DNA of 52,102 nucleotides from Clostridiales bacterium (GTDB lineage Bacteria; Bacillota; Clostridia; Christensenellales; Aristaeellaceae), in assembly GCA_015056315.1 (NCBI GenBank), contig SVGN01000018.1, forward strand, positions 1 to 52,102, given 5' to 3'. A model generated the notes under the pieces. It was not told the DNA's origin, searched no databases, and worked only from the letters and a program-made list of their open reading frames with translations. Both the position numbers and the translations under genes were made by a program. This document shows positions 29,234-39,192 of this stretch, one piece after another (the stretch's first letter is position 1; the number at the start of each line of letters is the position of its first letter).

Positions 29234-30400
29234 CTACTGGGCCATTTCTTCGCCCTGAGCAGGCCACAGCCGGAGCATCCTTTCCAGCTCATAGCCGTAG
29301 CTGCGCTGCCCGATGGTATCGCCGGTGACCAGCGGCACCGAATGGAGCACACGCCCCTCCAGCATCAGCTTTGCCGTACCTACCGCTTCGCCTGCGGGCA
29401 GCCCGGCGGGCAGGCTCTCCGGCAGCTCCAGCACCAGCGCAGGCAGATAGCCTCTGGGCAGCGGCGCGGCCAGATCGCTTTCCGCTACGATGCCTACAGT
29501 CTCCTGCACGCCGTTTTCCACCGGCAGGCGGCGCACGCTCTCTCCCTTGCTGAGGGCGGTAAAGAACTCGTATTTCTCAAAGCCCAGATCCATCAGGCGG
29601 GCGGCTTCGTCGAACCAATCGCCGCAGCCAAGCACCACACCGATCACCTCCATACCGTCCCGCTCTGCGCCAAACACCAGGCAGCGCCCGGCGGCCTTGG
29701 TGTAACCGGTCTTGATGCCGGTGGCCCCTTCATAGTCGGTCAGGAGCCGGTTTTTGTTGTTCAGTATGCGGTGGTAGCTGCGCCCCGCCCAGGAGATGGA
29801 GGCCCTGCGGGTGGAGACGATCTCCCGGAACAAGGGCTGCTGCATGGCCTCCCGGGCGATCAGCGCCAGCTCGTAGGCGGTGGTCTGGTGGCCCTGCATG
29901 GGCAGCCCGTGTGGGGTGAGGAACACTGTCTGGGTGCAGCCCAGCTCCGCTGCCCGTTCGGTCATCATGCGGCAGAAGGTGTCCACATCGCCGCCAATAT
30001 GCTCTGAGATGGCTACGGCAGCATCGTTGCCGCTGGCCAGAAGAAGCCCGTAGAGCAGATCCTTCAGCGAGATCTCCTCGCCCTCGGAAAGATAGATACT
30101 GGTGCCCGGTACCCCGAAGGCATTGCGGCTCACGGTAACGATATCATCCATATTGCCGTTTTCCAATGCCAGAAGCGCCGTCATGATCTTGGTGGTGGAG
30201 GCCATGGGCAGGGGCAGGTTCTCCTGTGCAGCCAAGAGGATGTTGCCGGTGGTACGCTCGATCAGCACCGCTGCTTTGGCGGAGGTGTTCACCGTAGCGC
30301 CTGGGGAGCCTTCCGCCTTCGCCTGCTGCCCCAGCAGCGAAAGCACCGTGCAGCACAGCAGCACCGCCAGCCTGCGGATGGAGAAGATGCATCTTTTCAT
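29234..30400 (-). CDS. D-alanyl-D-alanine carboxypeptidase, penicillin-binding protein family S11
   Basis: Removes the terminal D-Ala from peptidoglycan stem peptides outside the membrane. The 388-residue protein has a signal peptide (cleavage near AKA, residue 29), the SxxK motif at Ser68-Lys71 in MASTTKIM, SGN at 123-125 and KTG at 230-232 in GIKTGYT. A C-terminal beta domain of PBP5 type follows, ending in a weak amphipathic segment. It overlaps gerW by 4 bases (ATGA) in an operon with a sigma-G-like promoter, so it is likely the forespore enzyme (DacF-like role) that tunes cortex or germ-cell-wall cross-linking rather than a vegetative one. Confidence 0.92.
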   Translation of the reverse strand: MKRCIFSIRRLAVLLCCTVLSLLGQQAKAEGSPGATVNTSAKAAVLIERTTGNILLAAQENLPLPMASTTKIMTALLALENGNMDDIVTVSRNAFGVPGTSIYLSEGEEISLKDLLYGLLLASGNDAAVAISEHIGGDVDTFCRMMTERAAELGCTQTVFLTPHGLPMQGHQTTAYELALIAREAMQQPLFREIVSTRRASISWAGRSYHRILNNKNRLLTDYEGATGIKTGYTKAAGRCLVFGAERDGMEVIGVVLGCGDWFDEAARLMDLGFEKYEFFTALSKGESVRRLPVENGVQETVGIVAESDLAAPLPRGYLPALVLELPESLPAGLPAGEAVGTAKLMLEGRVLHSVPLVTGDTIGQRSYGYELERMLRLWPAQGEEMAQ

Positions 30401-30834
30401 GCCTTGGGCAGCTCCTCCTCCGTGGTAAAGGTCTCGGTCACCGCACTGCTGCCCTTTTGAGACTTGCCCTCCGTCATTTCTTCGATCAGCTGGGGCAGCA
30501 GCTCCACCACCCGCTCCACCGCGCCGTTGGTCTGGGCGGGCAGCATGCGCACTCCATCGCTGCTCACCACCAGAAAACCCACCGGCTGTACCGAGACCCC
30601 GGCGCCTGTGCCGCCTGCAAAGGGCAGCGCACCTTCCGGCGAGACCCGTACCCGTCCGTCTTGGGCTGCAAAATCGCCGCCGCCCGCAATAAAGCCGAAG
30701 CTGACCTTGGAAATGGGAATGATCGTGGTGCCTGCGCTGCCGATGACCGGTGCACCCACCACTGTGTTCACGTCCACCATGCTGCGGATGCTCTCCATGG
30801 TGTTCTGCATCATACTGTCAATGGGATGCTGCAT
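30397..30834 (-). CDS. gerW: GerW/YtfJ family sporulation protein
   Basis: The 145-residue protein matches the YtfJ/GerW family in Bacillus, a forespore protein needed for full germination with some nutrients. The family block HPIDSMMQNTMESIRSM at the start, VNTVVGAPVI and GTTIIPISKVSFGF with a Gly-rich AGGGDF segment are clear; the C-terminal 30 residues are acidic and variable. The start at 30834 has AAAGGAGG 7 bases upstream. It overlaps the end of the DUF2953 gene by 17 bases and the next gene by 4, which is tight operon packing. The order DUF2953-gerW corresponds to ytfI-ytfJ of Bacillus. Confidence 0.92.
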   Translation of the reverse strand: MQHPIDSMMQNTMESIRSMVDVNTVVGAPVIGSAGTTIIPISKVSFGFIAGGGDFAAQDGRVRVSPEGALPFAGGTGAGVSVQPVGFLVVSSDGVRMLPAQTNGAVERVVELLPQLIEEMTEGKSQKGSSAVTETFTTEEELPKA

Positions 30835-31375
30835 ACTCTTCCTCCTTTGATGAAGCTGCTCTGCGCTGCTGCCTGAGCCATGCAACAGCCGCCGGGAATA
30901 GGCTGCCCAGCCTCAGGCTGATTATGCAGCGTATGAGCACCTCCGACCCCTGACCCCGGTGGTCTGCATGCAGGTGGATGCGCAGGGGAAGCCGCCCCGA
31001 GCACAGCGGCAGCGCAGCCGCCCGCAGCGCTCCGTAGATCAGCGCCGTTCTGGCCGCATCCGGCTCGGAAACAGACACATAGCAGGAGAGCACCTCCACC
31101 CGCACTGCCCGCCTCAGTGCGCTGCGCACCGGTCGGGAGAGGAGGGTTCGGAGCATGCGCAGGTTTTCGGGCTTCAGCTGCTCGGTCATATCCTGCTGGC
31201 GGATAGGCTTTTCATCCCCGGCATCCTCGTCTCTGCGGCGCCGGTAGAAGGGCAGGCCCGCTGCCTGCAGCCGGAGCATATAGCCGGGTCTCCGACCTGT
31301 GCGCAGCCGCAGCGATATGCGCACAGGGGTGATCAGCACCAGATAAACCAGTAGGGAGAAAAAATACATATTCAT
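30818..31375 (-). CDS. DUF2953 (YtfI-like) membrane-anchored sporulation-associated protein
   Basis: This 185-residue protein starts with one TM helix (about 4-18) followed by short beta-rich stretches such as VRVEVLSCYVSVSEPDAARTA and a basic C-terminus, as in the DUF2953 family encoded before ytfJ in Bacillus and Clostridia. GGAGGT 8 bases upstream of the ATG sets the start. The frame is open far upstream antisense to dnaK; that part is not coding. Function is unknown; the genomic company of gerW and the sigma-G-like promoter put it in the developing forespore. Confidence 0.75.
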   Translation of the reverse strand: MNMYFFSLLVYLVLITPVRISLRLRTGRRPGYMLRLQAAGLPFYRRRRDEDAGDEKPIRQQDMTEQLKPENLRMLRTLLSRPVRSALRRAVRVEVLSCYVSVSEPDAARTALIYGALRAAALPLCSGRLPLRIHLHADHRGQGSEVLIRCIISLRLGSLFPAAVAWLRQQRRAASSKEEEYAASH

Positions 31376-31404
31376 CCGCAAAACCTCCCAAAAGCCGGTA
31401 GCCA

Positions 31405-31434
31405 TAGCATGTACAGGGCGCAGAGCGGGTATTC
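31405..31434 (-). promoter_or_regulatory. Sigma-G-type (forespore) promoter of the DUF2953-gerW-dac operon
   Basis: On the minus strand, GAATA (31434-31430), exactly 18 bases, then CATGCTA (31411-31405). This fits the Bacillus consensus GHATR-N18-CATXHTA at every specified position. The -10 lies 29 bases before the start codon. No convincing sigma-A promoter is visible on this strand, and all three genes downstream fit a forespore role. Confidence 0.7.
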
Positions 31435-31474
31435 GTGAGCACACCGGTGCATAAAGTTTACGGTTTGTCCATAC

Positions 31475-31489
31475 GAAAGCTTTGCTTTC
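31475..31489. repeat. Palindrome overlapping the dnaK-operon -35 box
   Basis: GAAAGC, three T bases, GCTTTC. It overlaps the -35 hexamer TTGCTT and could be an operator. It is not a CIRCE element (TTAGCACTC-N9-GAGTGCTAA), which is absent here. Confidence 0.4.
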
Positions 31490-31510
31490 CTCACAGATTT
31501 TGGGTATGAT
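31482..31510 (+). promoter_or_regulatory. Sigma-A promoter of the dnaK-DUF5685-dnaJ-like operon
   Basis: TTGCTT at 31482-31487, 17 bases, TATGAT at 31505-31510. The leader is about 35 bases with AGGAGG at 31536-31541. Confidence 0.65.
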
Positions 31511-31549
31511 ATATGGTGACCGCTTTTCTATGGTCAGGAGGTACATTTT

Positions 31550-33310
31550 ATGGGTAAAACGATCGGTATTGATCTGGGTACCACCAACTCGTGCGTTGCA
31601 TTTCTGGAAAACGGCGAGGCAACGGTCATCCCCAATGCAGAAGGCAGCCGCACCACACCGTCTGTTGTTGCTTTTTCCAAGGACGGCGAACGCATCGTGG
31701 GCAGCGCAGCCAAGCGGCAGGCTGTAACCAACAGCGCCCGCACGGTGTTTTCCATCAAACGTGAGATGGGCACCGACAACCGCACAAAGATCGATGGCAA
31801 GAGCTACACCCCGCAGGAGATCTCCGCTATCATTCTGCAAAAGCTCAAGCTGGATGCGGAAGCCTATCTGGGCGAGAGCGTGACCGATGCGGTCATCACC
31901 GTACCGGCCTATTTCAGCGACAGCCAGCGCCAGGCCACCAAGGATGCGGGCCGCATCGCAGGCCTCAACGTGCTGCGCATCATCAACGAGCCCACTGCTG
32001 CCGCCATGGCTTACGGCATGGATAAGGGCGGCGCACAGCGCATCATGGTCTACGACCTGGGCGGCGGCACCTTCGATGTATCCGTGCTGGATATCAACAA
32101 CGAGGTGATCGAGGTACTGGCCACCGCAGGCAACAACCGCCTGGGCGGCGACGATTTCGACAACTGCGTGGTCTCTTGGCTGCTGGAGGAGTTCCGGCGG
32201 CAGGAGAAGATCGACCTTTCCACCGATACGGCAGCCATGGGGCGCATCCGCGAGGCCGCCGAAAAGGCCAAGATCGAGCTGAGCGCCGCGCTGACCACCA
32301 CCGTCAGCCTGCCGTTCCTGTATTCCGACCGCAACGGCGCAAAGCATCTGGAGACCACCCTTACCCGTGCTAAGTTCGACGAGCTTACCGCCCATCTGGT
32401 CAAGGCCACCATGGGCCCGGTGGAGCAGGCGCTCCGGGATGCGGGCCTCAAGCCCGGCGACCTGAACCGGGTGCTGCTGGTGGGCGGCTCCACCCGCATC
32501 CCTGCGGTGCAGGCTGCGGTCAAGAGCATCACCGGCAGAGAGCCCAGCCGGGATATCAACCCGGATGAGTGCGTTGCCATGGGTGCTGCCCTGCAGGGCG
32601 GCGTGATGCAGGGCGAGGTGAAGGGCCTTCTTTTGCTGGATGTAACGCCGCTCTCCCTTGGCATCGAGACCATGGGCGATGTGTTCAGCCGCATCATTGA
32701 GCGCAACACCATCGTTCCCGTGCAGCGCAGCCAGGTGTTCACCACCGCTGCCAATTTCCAGACCTCTGTGGATATCCACGTCTTGCAGGGCGAAAGAGAG
32801 ATCGCCAGCTGCAACAAGACCCTGGGCAAGTTCCGGCTTAGCGGCATCCGCCGTGCGCTGCGGGGCGTGCCCCAGATCGAGGTCACCTTCTCGATCGATG
32901 CCAACGGCATCGTCAATGTATCTGCCAAGGATCTGGGCACCGGCAAGCATCAGGAGATCACGCTGACCCAGAGCTCCAATATGTCCTCTGCCGAGATCGA
33001 CCGCGCGGTGAAGGATGCGGAGCGCTATGCCGAGGAGGATGCCCTGCGCAAGCAGCGGGCAGAGCTGCAGAACCGGGCGGAGGAGCTGCTTTACCAGGCA
33101 AAGAATGCGCAGAAGAAGCTCAATGCCGTGGATAAGGAACGCATCGAGGGCATGCGCAAGCGGGTGAAGCAGGCCATGGATGCCGGCAACGATCGGGAGC
33201 TGAAGGCCGCCTGCGAAGACCTGACCGATGCCCTCAACGCCTGCGGGCGTTATGTGGACCCCTCCGATATGAACGATGACGACGGGGCCATGGATGCGGA
33301 CATCACCTGA
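31550..33310 (+). CDS. Variant Hsp70 chaperone (DnaK paralogue)
   Basis: The 586-residue protein has a fully conserved Hsp70 ATPase domain: [12 protein letters not shown] near 5-16, [35 protein letters not shown], and the [15 protein letters not shown] interdomain linker. The substrate-binding beta domain is close to DnaK, but the near-invariant loop GIPPAPRG reads GIRRALRG (432-439), replacing all three prolines. The lid is short and the C-terminus ends in an acidic tail. It is not in an hrcA-grpE-dnaK operon and has no CIRCE site. Its three downstream partners include a J-domain protein, so it is probably a dedicated chaperone for them; the canonical dnaK would lie elsewhere in the genome. 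Confidence 0.9.
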
Positions 33311-33337
33311 TGCCCGGCCCCCACGAAAGGAAACAGC

Positions 33338-34198
33338 ATGTTTGGCTACATCACCCTTGCGCCGGATGCACTGCCCAAGGATCGGTGCGACCGGTACCGG
33401 GCCTTCTACTGCGGCCTGTGCCGCACGCTGCGCCAGCGCCACGGCGGGCTGAGCCGCATCACCCTCAGTTACGACCTTACGTTTCTCTACATCCTGCTCA
33501 ACTCACTTTATGAGCCGCAGGAGACGCTGGGGCTGGAGCGCTGCTTTGTTCATCCCGTCGCGGGTACCAATTTCATCGTCAGCGAGGCAGCCGAGTACTG
33601 TGCGGATATGAATATCGCCCTCAGCTACCACAAATGCATGGACGATTGGCAGGATGACCGCAGCCTGCCGGGCCGCGCCGAAGCCGCCCTGCTGCGCAGG
33701 AGTTACGAGCGGGTAAAAGCGCTCTACCCGGAAAAATGCGCTGTGATCGAAGACTGCCTCCGGCAGATCGGTCAATTGGAAAAAGCGGGGGCGCAGAGCC
33801 TGGATGGCGCTGCCAACCTGACGGCGCAGCTCCTTGGCACCATCTATGCCTACAAGGAGCGGGATTACTGGGCCGAGACCCTTGCCCAGATGGGGCAGGG
33901 GCTGGGGCGCTTCATCTACCTGATGGATGCCTACGAGGATCTGCCCCAGGATCTGCGCAAAAAGCGCTACAATCCGTTGGCGGCTTATCATCAGCGGGAG
34001 GATTACGAGGTCTTTGCACGGGAGTGCCTCACCATGCTCATTGCCGAGTGCACCGAGGCCTTTGAGACCCTGCCCGTGGTGCAGGATGCAGACCTCCTGC
34101 GCAACATCCTCTACAACGGCTGCTGGTCGCGCTACCACGCACTACAGAAACGGCGGGATAAGAACAAGCCTGCCGTCGTGAAAGAAGGTACAGCATGA
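33338..34198 (+). CDS. DUF5685 family helical protein with two aspartate-rich motifs
   Basis: The 286-residue, all-helical protein begins with [15 protein letters not shown] (Cys25, Cys28), typical of DUF5685. Two Asp-rich motifs stand about 95 residues apart: [10 protein letters not shown] at 98-107 and [16 protein letters not shown] at 190-205. Their form and spacing resemble the DDxxD and FQxxDDxxD metal-binding motifs of class I isoprenoid synthases (polyprenyl, squalene and phytoene synthases), so an enzyme or pseudo-enzyme of that fold is possible; this is inference, no function is established. It follows the DnaK variant by 27 bases and overlaps the J-domain gene by 4 bases. AAAGGAAAC precedes the ATG. 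Confidence 0.75.
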
Positions 34199-34971
34199 GA
34201 GATCCTTACGAGGTGCTGGGCATTTCTCCCGGCGCAAGCGATGATGAGATCAAATCTGCCTACCGCAAGCTGGCAAAGAAATACCACCCCGACCTGAACG
34301 GCGGCAGTGCCGAGGCAGAGCGCAAGATGAAGGAAGTAAACGATGCCTATACCTACCTGATCAAGAACAAGGGTCAGGGCAGCTATGGGGCAGGCGGTTA
34401 CGGCTCTTCTCAGGGCGGGTACGGCTCCCAGAGCAGCTATGGCGGCTATAGCGGCTATAGCGGTTACGGCTCCCAGGGCAGCTACGGCTCTCAGGGCAGC
34501 TATCGGGGCAACGGCCAGCAGTACGATTTCGGGGGCTTTGAGTTCTTCAATTTCGAAGACCTTTTCGGCGGCCGGAGCCGTTCCTACCAATCCACCACCT
34601 ATTACGAGAACGATCCTGTTTTCAAGAATGTGGAGCAGATGGTGCTGGCGGGCCGCTACAGTGAGGCGCTCAGTGCCCTTGGGCGCATCGACCAGCGCAA
34701 GGCAGCCTGGTATTACTGGAGCGCCCGTGCCAACATGGGCGCAGGCAACCGGCTGGCAGCCCTGAACGATGCCCGCACCGCCTCCCGAATGGCACCGGAT
34801 GAGGTAGCCTACCGGGAGCTGCTGGCGCAGCTGAACGCAGGCGGGCAGGCTTACGGCTACCGGGGCGGCAACGCAGGCGGCCTCAACTGCTGCTCCAACC
34901 CGATGATGACCTGCTGCTTCCTGAATATGCTTTGCAACTGCTGCTGCGGCCGCGGCTTCGGCTGCTGCTGA
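34195..34971 (+). CDS. J-domain protein with Tyr/Gly/Ser/Gln low-complexity region and cysteine-rich tail
   Basis: A 258-residue Hsp40-type co-chaperone. The J domain (1-58) is complete, with HPD at 31-33 to stimulate Hsp70 ATPase. Residues 61-104 are built from GY, SY, GS and SQ units with nine tyrosines. Next comes a [16 protein letters not shown] segment like the G/F region of DnaJ, then about 75 residues of TPR-like helices (141-215), and a tail with ten cysteines in pairs and triplets (232-258), such as NCCS, TCC, CNCCC and GCC. The canonical DnaJ zinc-finger and C-terminal domains are absent. The low-complexity part is encoded by imperfect 18-base tandem repeats (34468-34503). Partner of the DnaK variant in the same operon. 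Confidence 0.88.
34468..34503 (+). repeat. 18-base tandem repeat inside the J-protein gene
   Basis: Two adjacent copies, GGCTCCCAGGGCAGCTAC and GGCTCTCAGGGCAGCTAT, differ by two bases and encode GSQGSY twice. Looser related units surround them from about 34382 to 34507. Confidence 0.85.
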
Positions 34972-34989
34972 TGAAAGGAGATAACGACC

Positions 34990-35436
34990 ATGTCCTTTTG
35001 GGAAAAGATCAAACAGACCCTTCGTTCTTTCATGAACGGCCGTAACGGTGCCGACCAGCTGAGCATGGCGCTTTTGTGGGGCGGCCTGATCGTTTACCTG
35101 CTCAGCTCGATCCTGGGCAGCTTTGTGGGCCGTCCGCTGCTGGCCATTCTCAGCATGCTGCTTTCGTTTGTGGGTATGGCCATGTATGCCCTGTGCATTT
35201 ACCGTATGTTCTCCCGCGATCTGGAGAAGCGCCGCGCCGAGAACCGCCGCTATCTGGCTTTTGCCGATCGGCAGAAGAAGAAGGCCTCCCAGGCGGTGAA
35301 GCGTTTCCAGAACCGCAAGGTATACAAGTACTTCAAGTGCCCCGGCTGCAAGGCCTGGCTGCGCCTGAAGCGGGGCAGCGGCGTGGTGACCGTTACCTGC
35401 AGCCGCTGCCATACCAGCTTTACCCAGAAGAGCTGA
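34990..35436 (+). CDS. Two-TM membrane protein with C-terminal zinc ribbon
   Basis: The 148-residue protein has two TM helices (about 24-44 and 48-72), a basic helical linker (75-112) and a treble-clef/zinc-ribbon with Cys117, Cys120, Cys137 and Cys140 in FKCPGC and VTCSRC. With two helices the basic linker and zinc ribbon face the cytoplasm if the N-terminus does. It ends the operon of the DnaK variant, 18 bases after the J-protein gene, with AAAGGAG 9 bases upstream of the ATG. A role as membrane docking site for the chaperone pair is inference from context. The family is not one I can name. Confidence 0.8.
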   Translation: MSFWEKIKQTLRSFMNGRNGADQLSMALLWGGLIVYLLSSILGSFVGRPLLAILSMLLSFVGMAMYALCIYRMFSRDLEKRRAENRRYLAFADRQKKKASQAVKRFQNRKVYKYFKCPGCKAWLRLKRGSGVVTVTCSRCHTSFTQKS

Positions 35437-35551
35437 GGAGGGGCGGGGGCGCTGCAACTGTCTGACAAGAAAACTCGTAAGAGCCTGCCAAGTCGGCGAG
35501 GATGATGCAGGGGGAGGCGTTATCCCTCACTTGCCATTCCGTAAACGATGG
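35437..35551. other. Intergenic stretch without an identified gene
   Basis: 115 bases between the zinc-ribbon gene and the operon terminator. It holds one short dyad, GGGGGA (about 35510-35515) with TCCCTC (about 35523-35528), and no reading frame that looks coding. I could not match it to 6S, SRP, tmRNA or RNase P RNA. Confidence 0.5.
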
Positions 35552-35584
35552 AAGCGCAAGCCTCGACCGGCTTGCGCTTTTTTT
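35552..35584 (+). terminator. Rho-independent terminator of the chaperone operon
   Basis: A perfect 11-bp stem AAGCGCAAGCC (35552-35562) / GGCTTGCGCTT (35569-35579) runs into seven T bases. Confidence 0.93.
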
Positions 35585-35593
35585 GCGCTGCTG

Positions 35594-35602
35594 TGATAGA
35601 AT
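35594..35602 (+). promoter_or_regulatory. Possible extended -10 element of the DUF3784 gene
   Basis: TGA-TAGAAT fits an extended -10 (TGN-TATAAT). No good -35 is visible; TTGCGC at 35572 is 19 bases away inside the terminator. The 14-mer from 35592 recurs exactly at 52072. Confidence 0.4.
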
Positions 35603-35637
35603 GAAAGCGACAAACTTGAATTTGTGGAGGCATCAAT

Positions 35638-35946
35638 ATGTTAGTGTATTCCATTATTATGTTTCTGGTTGCAGCTCTGTTTACGGTATTGGGTATTTCA
35701 ATTTACAAGGGCAAAACCGATTTGATTCATGATTACCACCAAACAAAAGTCACAGATAGATCAGCCTACGGAAAAGCCTTTGGAAAAGCAATGCTTGTTA
35801 TCGCAACTGTAATGCTGCTCAGTGGCATTATAGGATTATTTGCTAATTTGCTTATGCTTGCCGTTGCTATACTTATCATAGGCTTGGTGATTGGCATAGG
35901 CTGTATTGTTACTGTACAAAGGAAGTACAATAAGGGAGTTTTCTAA
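35638..35946 (+). CDS. DUF3784 family small membrane protein
   Basis: The 102-residue protein has an N-terminal TM helix (1-20), a conserved polar segment YKGKTDLIHDYHQTKV at about 23-38, and two further TM helices (about 52-70 and 73-92). This is the DUF3784 pattern. TGTGGAGG 7 bases upstream sets the start. Its codons are markedly AT-rich (AAA, GAT, TTT, ATA) compared with the GC-rich neighbours on both sides, which suggests recent acquisition. It is flanked by terminators and stands alone. Function unknown. Confidence 0.8.
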   Translation: MLVYSIIMFLVAALFTVLGISIYKGKTDLIHDYHQTKVTDRSAYGKAFGKAMLVIATVMLLSGIIGLFANLLMLAVAILIIGLVIGIGCIVTVQRKYNKGVF

Positions 35947-36241: not shown

Positions 36242-36664
36242 ATGCAGCGTGGCAGCTATCAAACCAAACAGCAAGAGGCCGTGGCAGAGCTTTTTCAGCG
36301 CTGCCAAAGCAGCTGCCTTACCGCAGAGGAGGCCCACCGCCTGTTGCTGGAAAACGGTATGGAGGTGGGGAAGACCACCGTGTATCGTGCCATTACCAAG
36401 CTGTGCGATCAGGGCATCCTTCGCCGCTATGCGCCCGAGAGCAGCAGCGGCTCTGCCCGCTACCAGTACAACCCCTGCCGGGAGAGCCATCTGCACATCC
36501 GCTGTGCGGGCTGCGGTGCCATGGAGCACCTGCATTGCAGCGATGTGGAGGCCTTCAGCGCCCATATCCGGGCCCACCACGGCTTTGTGCTGGATGAAGG
36601 CCGCACCATGCTGTGCGGGCTGTGCGAAAGCTGCGCAAGCAAGAGAGAAAAGGTGCAAGCATGA
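36242..36664 (+). CDS. Fur-family metalloregulator, probably zinc-responsive (Zur)
   Basis: The 140-residue protein has the Fur winged-helix domain (about 1-80) with EVGKTTVYRAITKL as recognition helix region, and a C-terminal dimer domain with two CxxC pairs, RCAGCG and LCGLCESC, for the structural zinc. The regulatory His cluster HLHIRC and IRAHHGF is present. It heads an operon with a zinc ABC transporter and overlaps the next gene by 4 bases, so Zur is the best guess; Fur or Mur roles cannot be excluded. GGAGG lies 7 bases before the ATG, and the palindrome at 36203-36223 suggests autorepression. Confidence 0.88.
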   Translation: MQRGSYQTKQQEAVAELFQRCQSSCLTAEEAHRLLLENGMEVGKTTVYRAITKLCDQGILRRYAPESSSGSARYQYNPCRESHLHIRCAGCGAMEHLHCSDVEAFSAHIRAHHGFVLDEGRTMLCGLCESCASKREKVQA

Positions 36665-37668
36665 GAAACAGAACCATATTCGGAAAAGTGTACCGCCGTT
36701 GCCTGTGCCTGTGGGCGGCGCTGTGCCTGCTGCTCTGCGGCAGCGCGGCGGGGGAGGGGGCAAGCGCCGGTGAGACCCTCAGCATCGTTGCCCTCAACTT
36801 TCCGGGCTTCGATTTTGCCCGCCATGTGGCCGGTGCCGATGCAAGCGTGACCATGCTGCTAAAGCCCGGGGCAGACAGCCACAGCTACGAGCCCTCGCCT
36901 AAGGATATCCTGGCCATCCAGAACGCCGATCTGTTCATCTATACAGGCGGCGAAAGCGATACCTGGGTGGAGCGCATCCTGCTCTCGCTGGGGGAGGATG
37001 CCCCCGAAACGCTGCGCATGACCGATGTGGTCACCCTGCTGGCGGAGGAGCATACCGCCAGCATGCAGGCGGATCACGCTCACGACCACGGGGAGGAAGC
37101 CTGCGACGATCCGGAGCACCACCACGAAGCCCATGCCGAGGAAATGGATGAGCACGTATGGACGGCTCCCCTCAACGCTGCCGCCATCGTGGATGCGGTG
37201 GCTGAAAAGCTGTGCCTGTTGCGTCCCGAAGGCAGCGAAGCCTTCCTTGCCAATGCGGCAGACTACACCGCCCGGATCCGGGAGGTGGATGAGGCCTTCC
37301 GCATGGTGGTGGCAGAGGGCAAGCGGGATCTGATCATCTTTGGCGACCGTTTCCCGCTCAGGTATTTCGCCGCTGCTTACGGTCTGCGCTACGATGCCGC
37401 CTTCCCCGGCTGCAGTGAGGACAGCGAACCCAGCGTGCGCACTGTGATCTCTCTGGTGGATACCGTGCGCGAGGAGCAGATCCCGGTGGTGTTCCACATT
37501 GAGTATTCCAGCCAGAAAACGGCGCGTATCCTGGCAGAAGAGACCGGGGCAAAGCTCTGCCTGTTCCACGGCTGCCATACGGTATCGGCTGCGGAGATCG
37601 AAGCCGGTGCCACCTATGTATCCCTGATGCTGCAAAACGTGCAGGCACTGAAGGAGGCTTTGAACTGA
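36661..37668 (+). CDS. Zinc ABC transporter substrate-binding protein (ZnuA/AdcA-like)
   Basis: The 335-residue extracytoplasmic binding protein has a signal sequence with CLLLCGS, which could be a loose lipobox. Metal ligands expected from the family are His74 in DSHSYEP and His165 in DEHVW. Between them is a His/Asp/Glu-rich loop at 139-165 with HAHDHG and HHHEAH, typical of zinc-specific members. At the third-ligand position, where ZnuA usually has His, the sequence reads IFGDRFPLRYF, so an Asp may serve. The last ligand region is AAFPGCSEDSEP. The start at 36661 overlaps the regulator stop as ATGA. Confidence 0.88.
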   Translation: MRNRTIFGKVYRRCLCLWAALCLLLCGSAAGEGASAGETLSIVALNFPGFDFARHVAGADASVTMLLKPGADSHSYEPSPKDILAIQNADLFIYTGGESDTWVERILLSLGEDAPETLRMTDVVTLLAEEHTASMQADHAHDHGEEACDDPEHHHEAHAEEMDEHVWTAPLNAAAIVDAVAEKLCLLRPEGSEAFLANAADYTARIREVDEAFRMVVAEGKRDLIIFGDRFPLRYFAAAYGLRYDAAFPGCSEDSEPSVRTVISLVDTVREEQIPVVFHIEYSSQKTARILAEETGAKLCLFHGCHTVSAAEIEAGATYVSLMLQNVQALKEALN

Positions 37669-38366
37669 TGGCCCTCATCACATGCGAAAAGGCGACCTTT
37701 GCTTACGAAGGTGTGCCTGTGGTCAAGGAACTGGATCTGAAGATCGAACGCGGCCAATATCTTTGTATCGTGGGCGAGAATGGCTCCGGTAAATCCACTC
37801 TGGTCAAGGGGCTGCTGGGGCTGCTTCGCCCTGTGAGCGGTAAAGTGCTCTTTGGGGATGGGCTCAGGCAGAACGAGATCGGCTATCTGCCCCAGCGCAC
37901 CGATGCCCAATCCGACTTCCCTGCCTCGGTGTGGGAGGTGGCCTCCTCCGGCTGCCACGGCCTGTGGATGACCGCCAGGAAGCGGGAGAAGGTACGCGAA
38001 CTGCTCAAGCTGCTGGGCGTTGCCCATTTGGAAAAACACAGTTTTGCCCGCCTCAGCGGCGGCCAGCAGCAGCGGGTGCTGCTGGCAAGGGCTCTGTGTG
38101 CCACCAGTTCTCTGCTCTTGCTGGATGAGCCCGTGGCAGGGCTGGATCCCCTGGTCACCCGGGAAATGTACGATGTGATCCGTATGCTGCATAAGGAGCA
38201 GGGCCTTACCGTGGTCATGATCTCTCACGATGTGCAGGCCGCTATGCAGGAGGCAGACTGCATCCTGCACCTTTCCAACGGCGGCAGCTTCTACGGCACG
38301 CCCTTTGAGTACCGCCATTCCGAGCTGGGGCTCAGGTTCTTTGGAGGTTGCTGCTGCCATGAATAA
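37668..38366 (+). CDS. znuC: Zinc ABC transporter ATP-binding protein (ZnuC-like)
   Basis: The 232-residue cytoplasmic ATPase energises zinc import. Walker A is GENGSGKST at 36-44, the signature is LSGGQQQR, Walker B is LLLLDEP with the catalytic Glu, and the switch His lies in ISHD. The Q-loop segment YLPQRTD is present. Its ATG shares one base with the stop of the binding-protein gene, and its 3' end overlaps the permease start by 8 bases, so all three subunits are translationally coupled. The C-terminal CCCHE is an odd cysteine-rich ending that could touch metal. Confidence 0.93.
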   Translation: MALITCEKATFAYEGVPVVKELDLKIERGQYLCIVGENGSGKSTLVKGLLGLLRPVSGKVLFGDGLRQNEIGYLPQRTDAQSDFPASVWEVASSGCHGLWMTARKREKVRELLKLLGVAHLEKHSFARLSGGQQQRVLLARALCATSSLLLLDEPVAGLDPLVTREMYDVIRMLHKEQGLTVVMISHDVQAAMQEADCILHLSNGGSFYGTPFEYRHSELGLRFFGGCCCHE

Positions 38367-39192
38367 CGAAGTTTTTCAGCTGCTGGGCAAGATGTTCAGC
38401 TATCATTTTATGGTCAGGGCAGCCGTGGTGGGCCTGCTGGTGAGCCTGTGCGCCGCCCTGCTGGGGGTGAGCCTGGTGCTCAAGCGCTATTCCATGATCG
38501 GCGACGGCCTGAGCCATGTGGGCTTCGGTGCGCTGGCGGTGGCCTCTGCGCTGGGGCTGGCCCCCATGTGGGTCTCCATCCCTGTGGTGATGGCGGCTGC
38601 CGTTCTGCTGCTGCGCCTCTCCAGCCATGCCAAGGTAAAGGGCGATGCCCTCATCGCCATGATCTCCGCTGCCTCGCTGGCGGTAGGCGTCATCGTTCTC
38701 AGCCTGTCCTCCGGAACCACGGGCGATGTGAACAATTACCTCTTCGGCAGCGTGCTGGCCATGACCGGCGAGGACGTGTGGCTGAGTGTGGGGCTGGCGG
38801 CGGTGGTGCTGGTGCTGTTCGGCATCTTCTACCGCAAAATGTTCGCCGTTACCTTCGATGAGACCTTTGCCCGCGCTACCGGCGAAAAGGTGGAAGGTTA
38901 CCATCTGCTGCTGGCCTGCCTTACGGCATTGACCATCGTGCTGGGCATGCGGGTGATGGGTGCCATGCTCATCTCCAGCCTGATCATCTTTCCGGCGCTT
39001 ACGGCCATGCGGGTCTGCCGCAGCTTCCGCAGCGTAACGATCTGCGCCGCGGTGGTATCGGTAGTCTGCTTTATGCTGGGCCTTTGCGCCTCCTACCTGC
39101 TGGATACCCCCACCGGTGCCAGCGTGGTGGTGGCCAATGTGGTGGCCTTCCTCGCCTTCTCTCTGGCGGGCCGCATCCGGGAAAAGGGCTGA
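38359..39192 (+). CDS. znuB: Zinc ABC transporter permease (ZnuB-like, ABC-3 family)
   Basis: The 277-residue membrane protein has eight or so TM helices and the ABC-3 landmarks VLKRYSMIGDGLSHVGFGA near 38-56, FGSVLAM, and GMRVMGAMLISSLIIFPA. GGAGG lies 11 bases before the ATG at 38359; the frame is open upstream within znuC but has no hydrophobic pattern there. It is the last gene of the regulator-binding protein-ATPase-permease operon and is followed by a bidirectional hairpin. Confidence 0.93.
   Translation: MNNEVFQLLGKMFSYHFMVRAAVVGLLVSLCAALLGVSLVLKRYSMIGDGLSHVGFGALAVASALGLAPMWVSIPVVMAAAVLLLRLSSHAKVKGDALIAMISAASLAVGVIVLSLSSGTTGDVNNYLFGSVLAMTGEDVWLSVGLAAVVLVLFGIFYRKMFAVTFDETFARATGEKVEGYHLLLACLTALTIVLGMRVMGAMLISSLIIFPALTAMRVCRSFRSVTICAAVVSVVCFMLGLCASYLLDTPTGASVVVANVVAFLAFSLAGRIREKG

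Follow-up and report, generated by a model that had tools for sequence, protein, structure and literature searches.

In the 52,102-nucleotide stretch of Clostridiales bacterium DNA analyzed here (contig SVGN01000018.1, assembly GCA_015056315.1), hereafter the window, four co-directional genes at 31550-35436 encode, in this order, an Hsp70 of the DnaK type, a protein of the domain family DUF5685, a J protein with a Cys-rich C-terminal tail and a zinc-ribbon protein that is probably membrane-bound (Table 1). The object of interest is the pair of DUF5685 and Cys tail rather than the Hsp70 operon as such, as this pair offers a predicted fold for the family, i.e. that of the isoprenoid synthases, together with a tightly linked probable substrate. 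From the first gene to the last, the spacing is 27 bases, then an ATGA overlap of 4 bases, then 18 bases; the order and spacing given in a first-pass annotation agree with the open reading frame coordinates, and its Hsp70, DUF5685 and DnaJ-domain identities were borne out by profile matches. The same annotation had assumed one promoter and one terminator. A terminator is indeed found, absent from the output of a simple terminator scan though its fold calculation scores -25.3 kcal/mol, while a consensus scan of 31300-35800 gave no promoter-like site on the plus strand. No CIRCE (controlling inverted repeat of chaperone expression) site occurs across the window at up to three mismatches to the consensus, and neither hrcA nor grpE is present among six neighboring genes scanned with Pfam, both as originally annotated.

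Table 1. Features of the four-gene locus, with positions counted from the first letter of the window (aa, amino acids).
Feature	Position	Strand	Basis or remark
DnaK (Hsp70) paralogue, 586 aa	31550..33310	+	Open reading frame and HSP70 match, E 4.7e-223
DUF5685 protein (PF18937, E 1.3e-94), 286 aa	33338..34198	+	Class I isoprenoid-synthase fold predicted
DUF5685 C25xxC28	33410..33421	+	Possible metal (zinc) site, together with C69 (33542-33544) and usually H72
DUF5685 first aspartate motif, D102-D103-x-x-D106 (DDxxD)	33641..33655	+	Alignment of 161
DUF5685 second aspartate motif, D197-x3-D201-x3-D205	33926..33952	+	Alignment of 161
J protein, 258 aa: HPD-bearing J domain, Gly/Ser/Tyr-rich linker, TPR-like pair, Cys-rich tail	34195..34971	+	
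J domain, residues 1-59	34195..34371	+	PF00226, E 1e-20
TPR-like helices, residues 151-213	34645..34833	+	Sub-threshold TPR_19 match and conserved pattern
J protein C-terminal Cys-rich tail	34882..34968	+	10 of 10 Cys of the protein within the final 40 residues
Zinc-ribbon protein, 148 aa; membrane protein by hydrophobic sequence; C-terminal zinc ribbon (4 Cys)	34990..35436	+	Pfam matches sub-threshold only
Intrinsic terminator, 11-bp stem and T run	35552..35584	+	Fold -25.3 kcal/mol, z -4.0

The gene neighborhood was compared over 161 loci, namely 80 from a sample of one bacterial class (taken, from the named relatives, to be Clostridia), 80 from named nearest relatives, and that of the window. 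The class loci were chosen for spread over families from 155 DUF5685-positive genomes (G045 being counted twice); the named loci, the best 80 out of 587 relatives, are biased towards the window. As some flanks were short, absences of neighbors apply within the fetched flanks, and hmmsearch E values from scripted scans refer to small sets. DUF5685 scored above cut-off in 152 of 293 sampled class genomes. Of the 17 genomes in the window's genus 16 were positive, and 15 loci besides that of the window were fetched from these with flanks. A J gene accompanies DUF5685 in 155 of the 161 loci (74 of 80 in the class sample), lying 2 kb off in L055. Zinc-ribbon genes were found near the DUF5685-J pair in 53 loci (8 of 80), on the same strand in 49 of these, and DnaK near DUF5685 in 11 (4 of 80), two of them fragments at contig ends (L078, L119). 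Within the genus, DnaK lies beside DUF5685 in 14 of the 15 further loci. The positions of both genes vary, the zinc ribbon being placed ahead of DUF5685 or behind the J gene and DnaK likewise ahead of DUF5685 or behind the J gene (L093, L160). Given these counts and the variable order, the core is therefore DUF5685-J, with DnaK and the zinc ribbon as additions that recur in several lineages. The idea of a four-gene module thus holds for the DnaK linkage within the genus and for the recurring zinc ribbon, but not more widely, since 150 of the 161 loci show no DnaK and 108 no zinc ribbon within the fetched flanks, an outcome that the first-pass annotation had itself named as refuting; the four-gene unit is a local extension of the core. 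In other lineages another neighbor (cluster c2), outside the operon of the window, seems to resemble the S components of energy-coupling factor (ECF) transporters. The four members scanned matched no Pfam or NCBIfam family above cut-off.

The J protein of the window has an HPD-bearing J domain but neither a DnaJ_C nor a CXXCXGXG domain according to Pfam. J proteins are divided into classes A, B and C, and by its architecture this one belongs to class C rather than to A or B. The tail recurs across the loci: all 151 full-length J proteins have at least four Cys among their final 45 residues, a region that holds 1,164 of their 1,259 Cys, with 98 of the proteins lacking Cys elsewhere and 121 having one in the final two residues (four of the 155 J hits, each shorter than 150 amino acids, are omitted from these counts). 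The HPD motif is present in 150 of the 155 hits. Two tail styles were distinguished. The first, CECxGGD, has the S-component-like c2 neighbor in 55 of 60 cases; the second, which includes the window, has a zinc-ribbon neighbor in 51 of 91 and an S-component-like one in 11 of 91. As a strict marker of the Cys tail, c2 was weakened by hits that do not lie beside such a tail, i.e. those in the window's own genome (contig C52), in G228, G240 and G187, and in some others. Three loci (L114, L287, L288) have lost the J domain but keep a TPR protein that holds 15 to 20 Cys, directly after DUF5685 in L114 and away from it in the other two. An apparent duplication of the tail protein was seen in L374 (G259), where DUF5685 occurs with a J-TPR protein ending in GMC and with a TPR protein of 17 Cys.

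Across the class sample, DUF5685 and a profile of the TPR-Cys tail were found together in 146 genomes, DUF5685 alone in six, the profile alone in five and neither in 136; scored as negative were three genomes whose DUF5685 match fell short of the family cut-off (G145, G191, G287), along with 33 weak tail-profile hits. Among the six with DUF5685 alone, G021 and G098 do hold Cys-tailed J proteins (L055, L084), and in G083 the contig with DUF5685 ends nearby. Two of the five with the profile alone (G079, G255) belong to a single family, f51, in which 40 genomes were searched. DUF5685 was present in three of these and a J-TPR protein, detected by a profile built without the tail, in 19. The three genomes with DUF5685 have J-TPR proteins with 6 to 8 Cys, located in the tail. 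In the 16 without it the Cys tail is gone, with 0 or 1 Cys in the entire protein, and a hydrophobic segment like FSPLGTIVKLFIGFYAIQFLLSFLGLIF is found instead (hydrophobic-tail J-TPR loci without DUF5685: L283, L284, L294-L301, L304-L311). A zinc-ribbon gene adjoins the J-TPR gene in 16 of these 16 and DnaK is a neighbor in two (L295, L297); the zinc ribbon thus stays with the J protein even where DUF5685 is missing. In a tree of the tail-less parts, covering 11 of the 16 proteins and with a midpoint root only, the f51 hydrophobic-tail proteins form a single clade (100/99) that joins two Cys-tailed proteins with support of 97/79; because of this grouping the tail swap looks derived in f51. A second hydrophobic-tail group (f7) is separate in the same tree, where the labels require two changes. 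In locus L362 of one f7 genome (G108), DUF5685 is seemingly truncated after D197 and adjoins an S-component-like gene, the hydrophobic-tailed TPR protein being elsewhere in the genome. In another (G002), an open reading frame considered as a stand-alone Cys-tail peptide gene was rejected, as it is a remnant of a TPR protein.

The predicted structure of DUF5685 suggests an all-helical isoprenoid-synthase fold of class I, the best Foldseek match of the model being MoeN5 (E 1.2e-3, prob 1.00, TMq 0.54, 15% identity). Two aspartate motifs are highly conserved in the 161 sequences: D102 occurs in 161, D103 in 127 and D106 in 159, while D197 and D201 occur in 161 each and D205 in 160. E148 and Y194 are likewise found in all 161. 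A Cys site is nearly as constant, with C25 and C28 in 159 (two gaps), C69 in 160 (one gap) and H72 in 133. The second aspartate motif was aligned in both hhalign comparisons, i.e. with squalene/phytoene synthases (SQS/PSY) and with polyprenyl synthases. No profile match to the chain-elongating trans-prenyl synthases (PF00348) was obtained, and the second motif is not of their DDxxD form, Ala198 being present in 160 of 161; nor was there a match to squalene/phytoene synthase (PF00494), PF18937 being the sole Pfam match at E 0.01. The Gln just upstream of the second motif, given as a ComQ-type hallmark in a review (PMC13290415), is absent; a Tyr stands three residues before D197 in all 161 sequences, where equating it with the Gln position is our own reading of the alignment. 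No relative in the PDB was found with phmmer; hmmsearch brought up designed helical proteins and subunits of prefoldin there, at E 0.024 or higher, and these were dismissed as compositional. The family has no function assigned to it, and a full-text literature search found DUF5685 in one paper, where it is a listed domain. Thermotoga maritima, used as a control genome, also matches the family.

The DnaK of the window scores above the NCBIfam equivalog cut-off for DnaK (TIGR02350, 834.4 against 822.55 bits) and is therefore a diverged paralogue rather than an odd type of Hsp70; the variant status assigned to it by the first-pass annotation stands in the former sense, at 63.4% identity to the housekeeping copy of the same genome, and not in the latter. 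That second copy scores higher and lies on contig C18 within an hrcA-grpE-dnaK-dnaJ operon. Among 12 genomes examined for DnaK copies, nine carry a full copy of each type, module and housekeeping; in G239 one match is full and two are partial, while G217 and G063 each carry a single one. A branch with support of 100/99 splits 14 module-type from 11 housekeeping DnaKs, with a G239 copy, outside those counts, placed on the module side. The possibility that the window DnaK is the only, housekeeping copy, which the annotation had named as a ground for abandoning its proposal, was accordingly rejected. The C18 operon resembles the window in combining an Hsp70 and a J protein, but differs in location and in the separate group to which its DnaK belongs.

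Since the Cys tail tracks a protein of predicted isoprenoid-synthase fold and gives way to a hydrophobic segment in its absence, the tail is most simply read as a lipid-attachment site, and the fold would make the attached group a prenyl group. The J protein persists without DUF5685 when it has a hydrophobic tail, and for that reason DUF5685 acting on the J protein reads better than the reverse. We thus tentatively favor, at slightly less than even chances, a reading in which DUF5685 prenylates Cys of the J-protein tail and so tethers the J protein to the membrane, where it recruits Hsp70. DUF5685 would hold a prenyl diphosphate by its two aspartate motifs and pass the prenyl group to a Cys in the tail of the J protein encoded by the next gene, and the tail would fix that protein on the inner face of the membrane. 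The anchored J protein could then recruit or stimulate Hsp70, which would be the general DnaK in most of these bacteria but a dedicated paralogue in the window's genus and in a few further lineages; here the DnaK of the same operon is the natural partner. A membrane partner may often stand alongside, namely the zinc-ribbon protein here and the protein resembling an ECF S component in other lineages. The wider proposition, that a class I-fold DUF5685 S-prenylates this tail in about half of the class and so creates a membrane chaperone station, sometimes with its own Hsp70, is a possibility we hold with less than even confidence.

ComQ and ComX, products of adjacent genes, provide a point of comparison. 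ComQ is a bacterial trans-isoprenyl-diphosphate-synthase-like (trans-IDS-like) enzyme that prenylates the ComX peptide, keeps the first DDxxD motif and has an altered second one (PMC5331326). The likeness lies in an isoprenyl-synthase-type enzyme with a protein or peptide acceptor, as proposed for DUF5685. The acceptor in ComX is a tryptophan of a short pheromone and not a Cys tail of a chaperone, and DUF5685 has the invariant Tyr where trans-IDS-like enzymes are said to have Gln. MoeN5, the moenomycin prenyltransferase, belongs to a fold group with DDXXD and DXXXD motifs and transfers a prenyl group onto a lipid, and the account of it consulted mentions no Cys-rich metal site (PMC7839719). 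It is like DUF5685 in the fold predicted for the latter but unlike it in acceptor, which in MoeN5 is a small molecule.

J proteins with lipids on their Cys are known from eukaryotes, where Ydj1 is an example of a farnesylated Hsp40 and the lipidating enzymes belong to other folds. Farnesylated Hsp40 (PMC8262983, PMC10604809) and the palmitoylated cysteine-string protein DNAJC5 (PMC10903463, PMC9876576) have been described, with membrane anchoring stated for the latter. DNAJC5 resembles the present J protein in having a J domain and a clustered Cys segment, a functional analogy by architecture only; the TPR-like pair of the bacterial protein sets it apart from the eukaryotic lipidated J proteins. 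A Cys-prenylation system of the kind proposed would be convergent with these. In archaea, archaeol is attached to the Cys of a C-terminal lipobox and aids membrane location, according to a 2026 review (PMC13290415). This is a near precedent, which lowers the novelty of isoprenoid-type lipids on Cys in prokaryotes; it is alike in placing such a lipid on a C-terminal Cys and unlike in that the lipid is archaeol rather than a prenyl group and the hosts are archaea. Going by two reviews, of which that of 2017 states that Cys isoprenylation was undetected in prokaryotes (PMC5331326) and that of 2026 that every characterized trans-IDS-like peptide prenyltransferase targets tryptophan (PMC13290415), Cys prenylation in the present case would be a first for bacteria, and DUF5685 the first trans-IDS-like enzyme to act on Cys. 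Among the papers listed by our literature searches there was no report of bacterial Cys prenylation or of a prenylated bacterial J protein.

Several observations weigh against prenylation of the tail. The f51 contrast is a single evolutionary event, so that its Fisher p of 0.001 overstates the case, as does the class-wide p. The f7 group is less clean, with two of its four genomes (G002, G108) keeping a DUF5685 gene despite a hydrophobic-tailed TPR protein, even if the gene is truncated in G108 and found as two matches in G002. G060 and G230 have DUF5685 and a J-TPR protein of only two Cys, both in the tail; in G044, G225 and G057, which have DUF5685, no tail protein was found; and G182, without DUF5685, has a short-tailed J-TPR protein (5 Cys in all). 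The HPD motif is missing from five of the 155 J hits, indicating that Hsp70 action is not universal. The tail pattern CADxxCECxGGD recurs in fixed form in many tails and could be a metal-binding fold, and DUF5685 carries its own CxxC...CxxH site, possibly metal-binding as well. As regards the enzyme, Foldseek gave no match for DUF5685 at E <= 0.001, and the hhalign comparisons with SQS/PSY and polyprenyl synthases were weak (E about 1e-3, with respective probabilities of 20% and 17.5%). Computation thus gives the predicted fold, the motifs, the gene pairing and the Cys tail, with its co-occurrence with DUF5685 and its hydrophobic replacement in a family that mostly lacks DUF5685, whereas catalysis by DUF5685, the tail as its substrate, the prenyl nature of the group and the membrane as destination are inferred.

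Some of these points would be accommodated if the Cys tail were a metal-binding element, for zinc, iron or iron-sulphur, which DUF5685 loads, receives from or senses via CxxC...CxxH, the Asp motifs holding a metal without prenyl chemistry. The near-invariance of C25, C28 and C69 and the frequency of H72 speak for this, as do tail proteins with up to 20 Cys in recurrent spacing with conserved acidic residues, and the zinc-ribbon protein that often adjoins. We nevertheless regard it as unlikely, although it deserves to be taken seriously: the two Cys of the G060 and G230 proteins lie in Gly/Asn-rich sequence, one at the final residue, and would make a poor metal cluster, a hydrophobic segment as replacement suits membrane anchoring better, and the zinc-uptake operon next to the module in the window is not conserved with it. 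Alternatively, DUF5685 could make a small terpenoid or condense two prenyl chains in the manner of squalene/phytoene synthase, the J protein and membrane partner handling the lipid or the enzyme and the tail being no substrate. The predicted fold and motifs are of the isoprenoid-synthase type, hhalign pairs the second motif with SQS/PSY, and the alternative neighbor c2 seems to resemble ECF S components, which bind small molecules. Yet no terpenoid gene was recognized among the 45 largest neighbor clusters, Pfam-scanned only in part, DUF5685 is tied to the Cys tail even where the J domain is absent (L114), and the tail is altered where the enzyme is missing (f51), so we consider this rather doubtful.

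The proposal of the first-pass annotation, that DUF5685 is the client of an Hsp70 and a J protein dedicated to folding it, with the zinc-ribbon protein as an anchor, draws on the conserved DUF5685-J pairing and on the existence of a dedicated DnaK paralogue. It fares poorly on the comparative data and is improbable: the 16 f51 genomes keep the J-TPR protein without the supposed client, now with a hydrophobic tail and with the zinc ribbon in all 16 and a DnaK neighbor in two, DnaK is linked in just 11 of the 161 loci, two as contig-end fragments, and the Cys tail is left unexplained. Least credible of all, and very improbable, is a catalytically dead isoprenoid-synthase fold that provides a platform to which the Cys tail binds. 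Proteins of this fold without catalytic activity do exist, e.g. NDUFAF6, but conservation of D102, E148, Y194, D197 and D201 in 161 of 161 sequences and of D205 in 160 would be unusual for a dead enzyme.

If prenylation of the tail by DUF5685 is correct, bacteria too prenylate proteins on Cys, and this has gone unnoticed in a widespread class. It would offer a testable enzyme-substrate pair and a new way to study the recruitment of Hsp70 to the bacterial membrane, in parallel to the lipid-anchored co-chaperones of eukaryotes. Even with another chemistry, the fold assignment and the enzyme-tail linkage amount to a testable hypothesis for DUF5685.

About 0.8 kb past the module lies a zinc-uptake operon (36242-39192) with a Fur-family regulator, ZnuA, an ABC ATPase and an ABC-3 permease. 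It was rejected as a module part, Fur, ZnuA and permease being found in 3 of the 15 genus loci; among the 161 loci, with flanks of limited length, Fur and ZnuA accompany the module in no locus but that of the window, and the permease does so in two. On the minus strand, an 874-codon open frame at 30818-33442 is partly antisense to dnaK and is presumably a high-GC shadow frame. Before the module, also on the minus strand, 29234-30885 holds a YtfJ-type sporulation protein and what reads as a D-Ala-D-Ala carboxypeptidase-like gene, which hints at a host that forms spores or once did.

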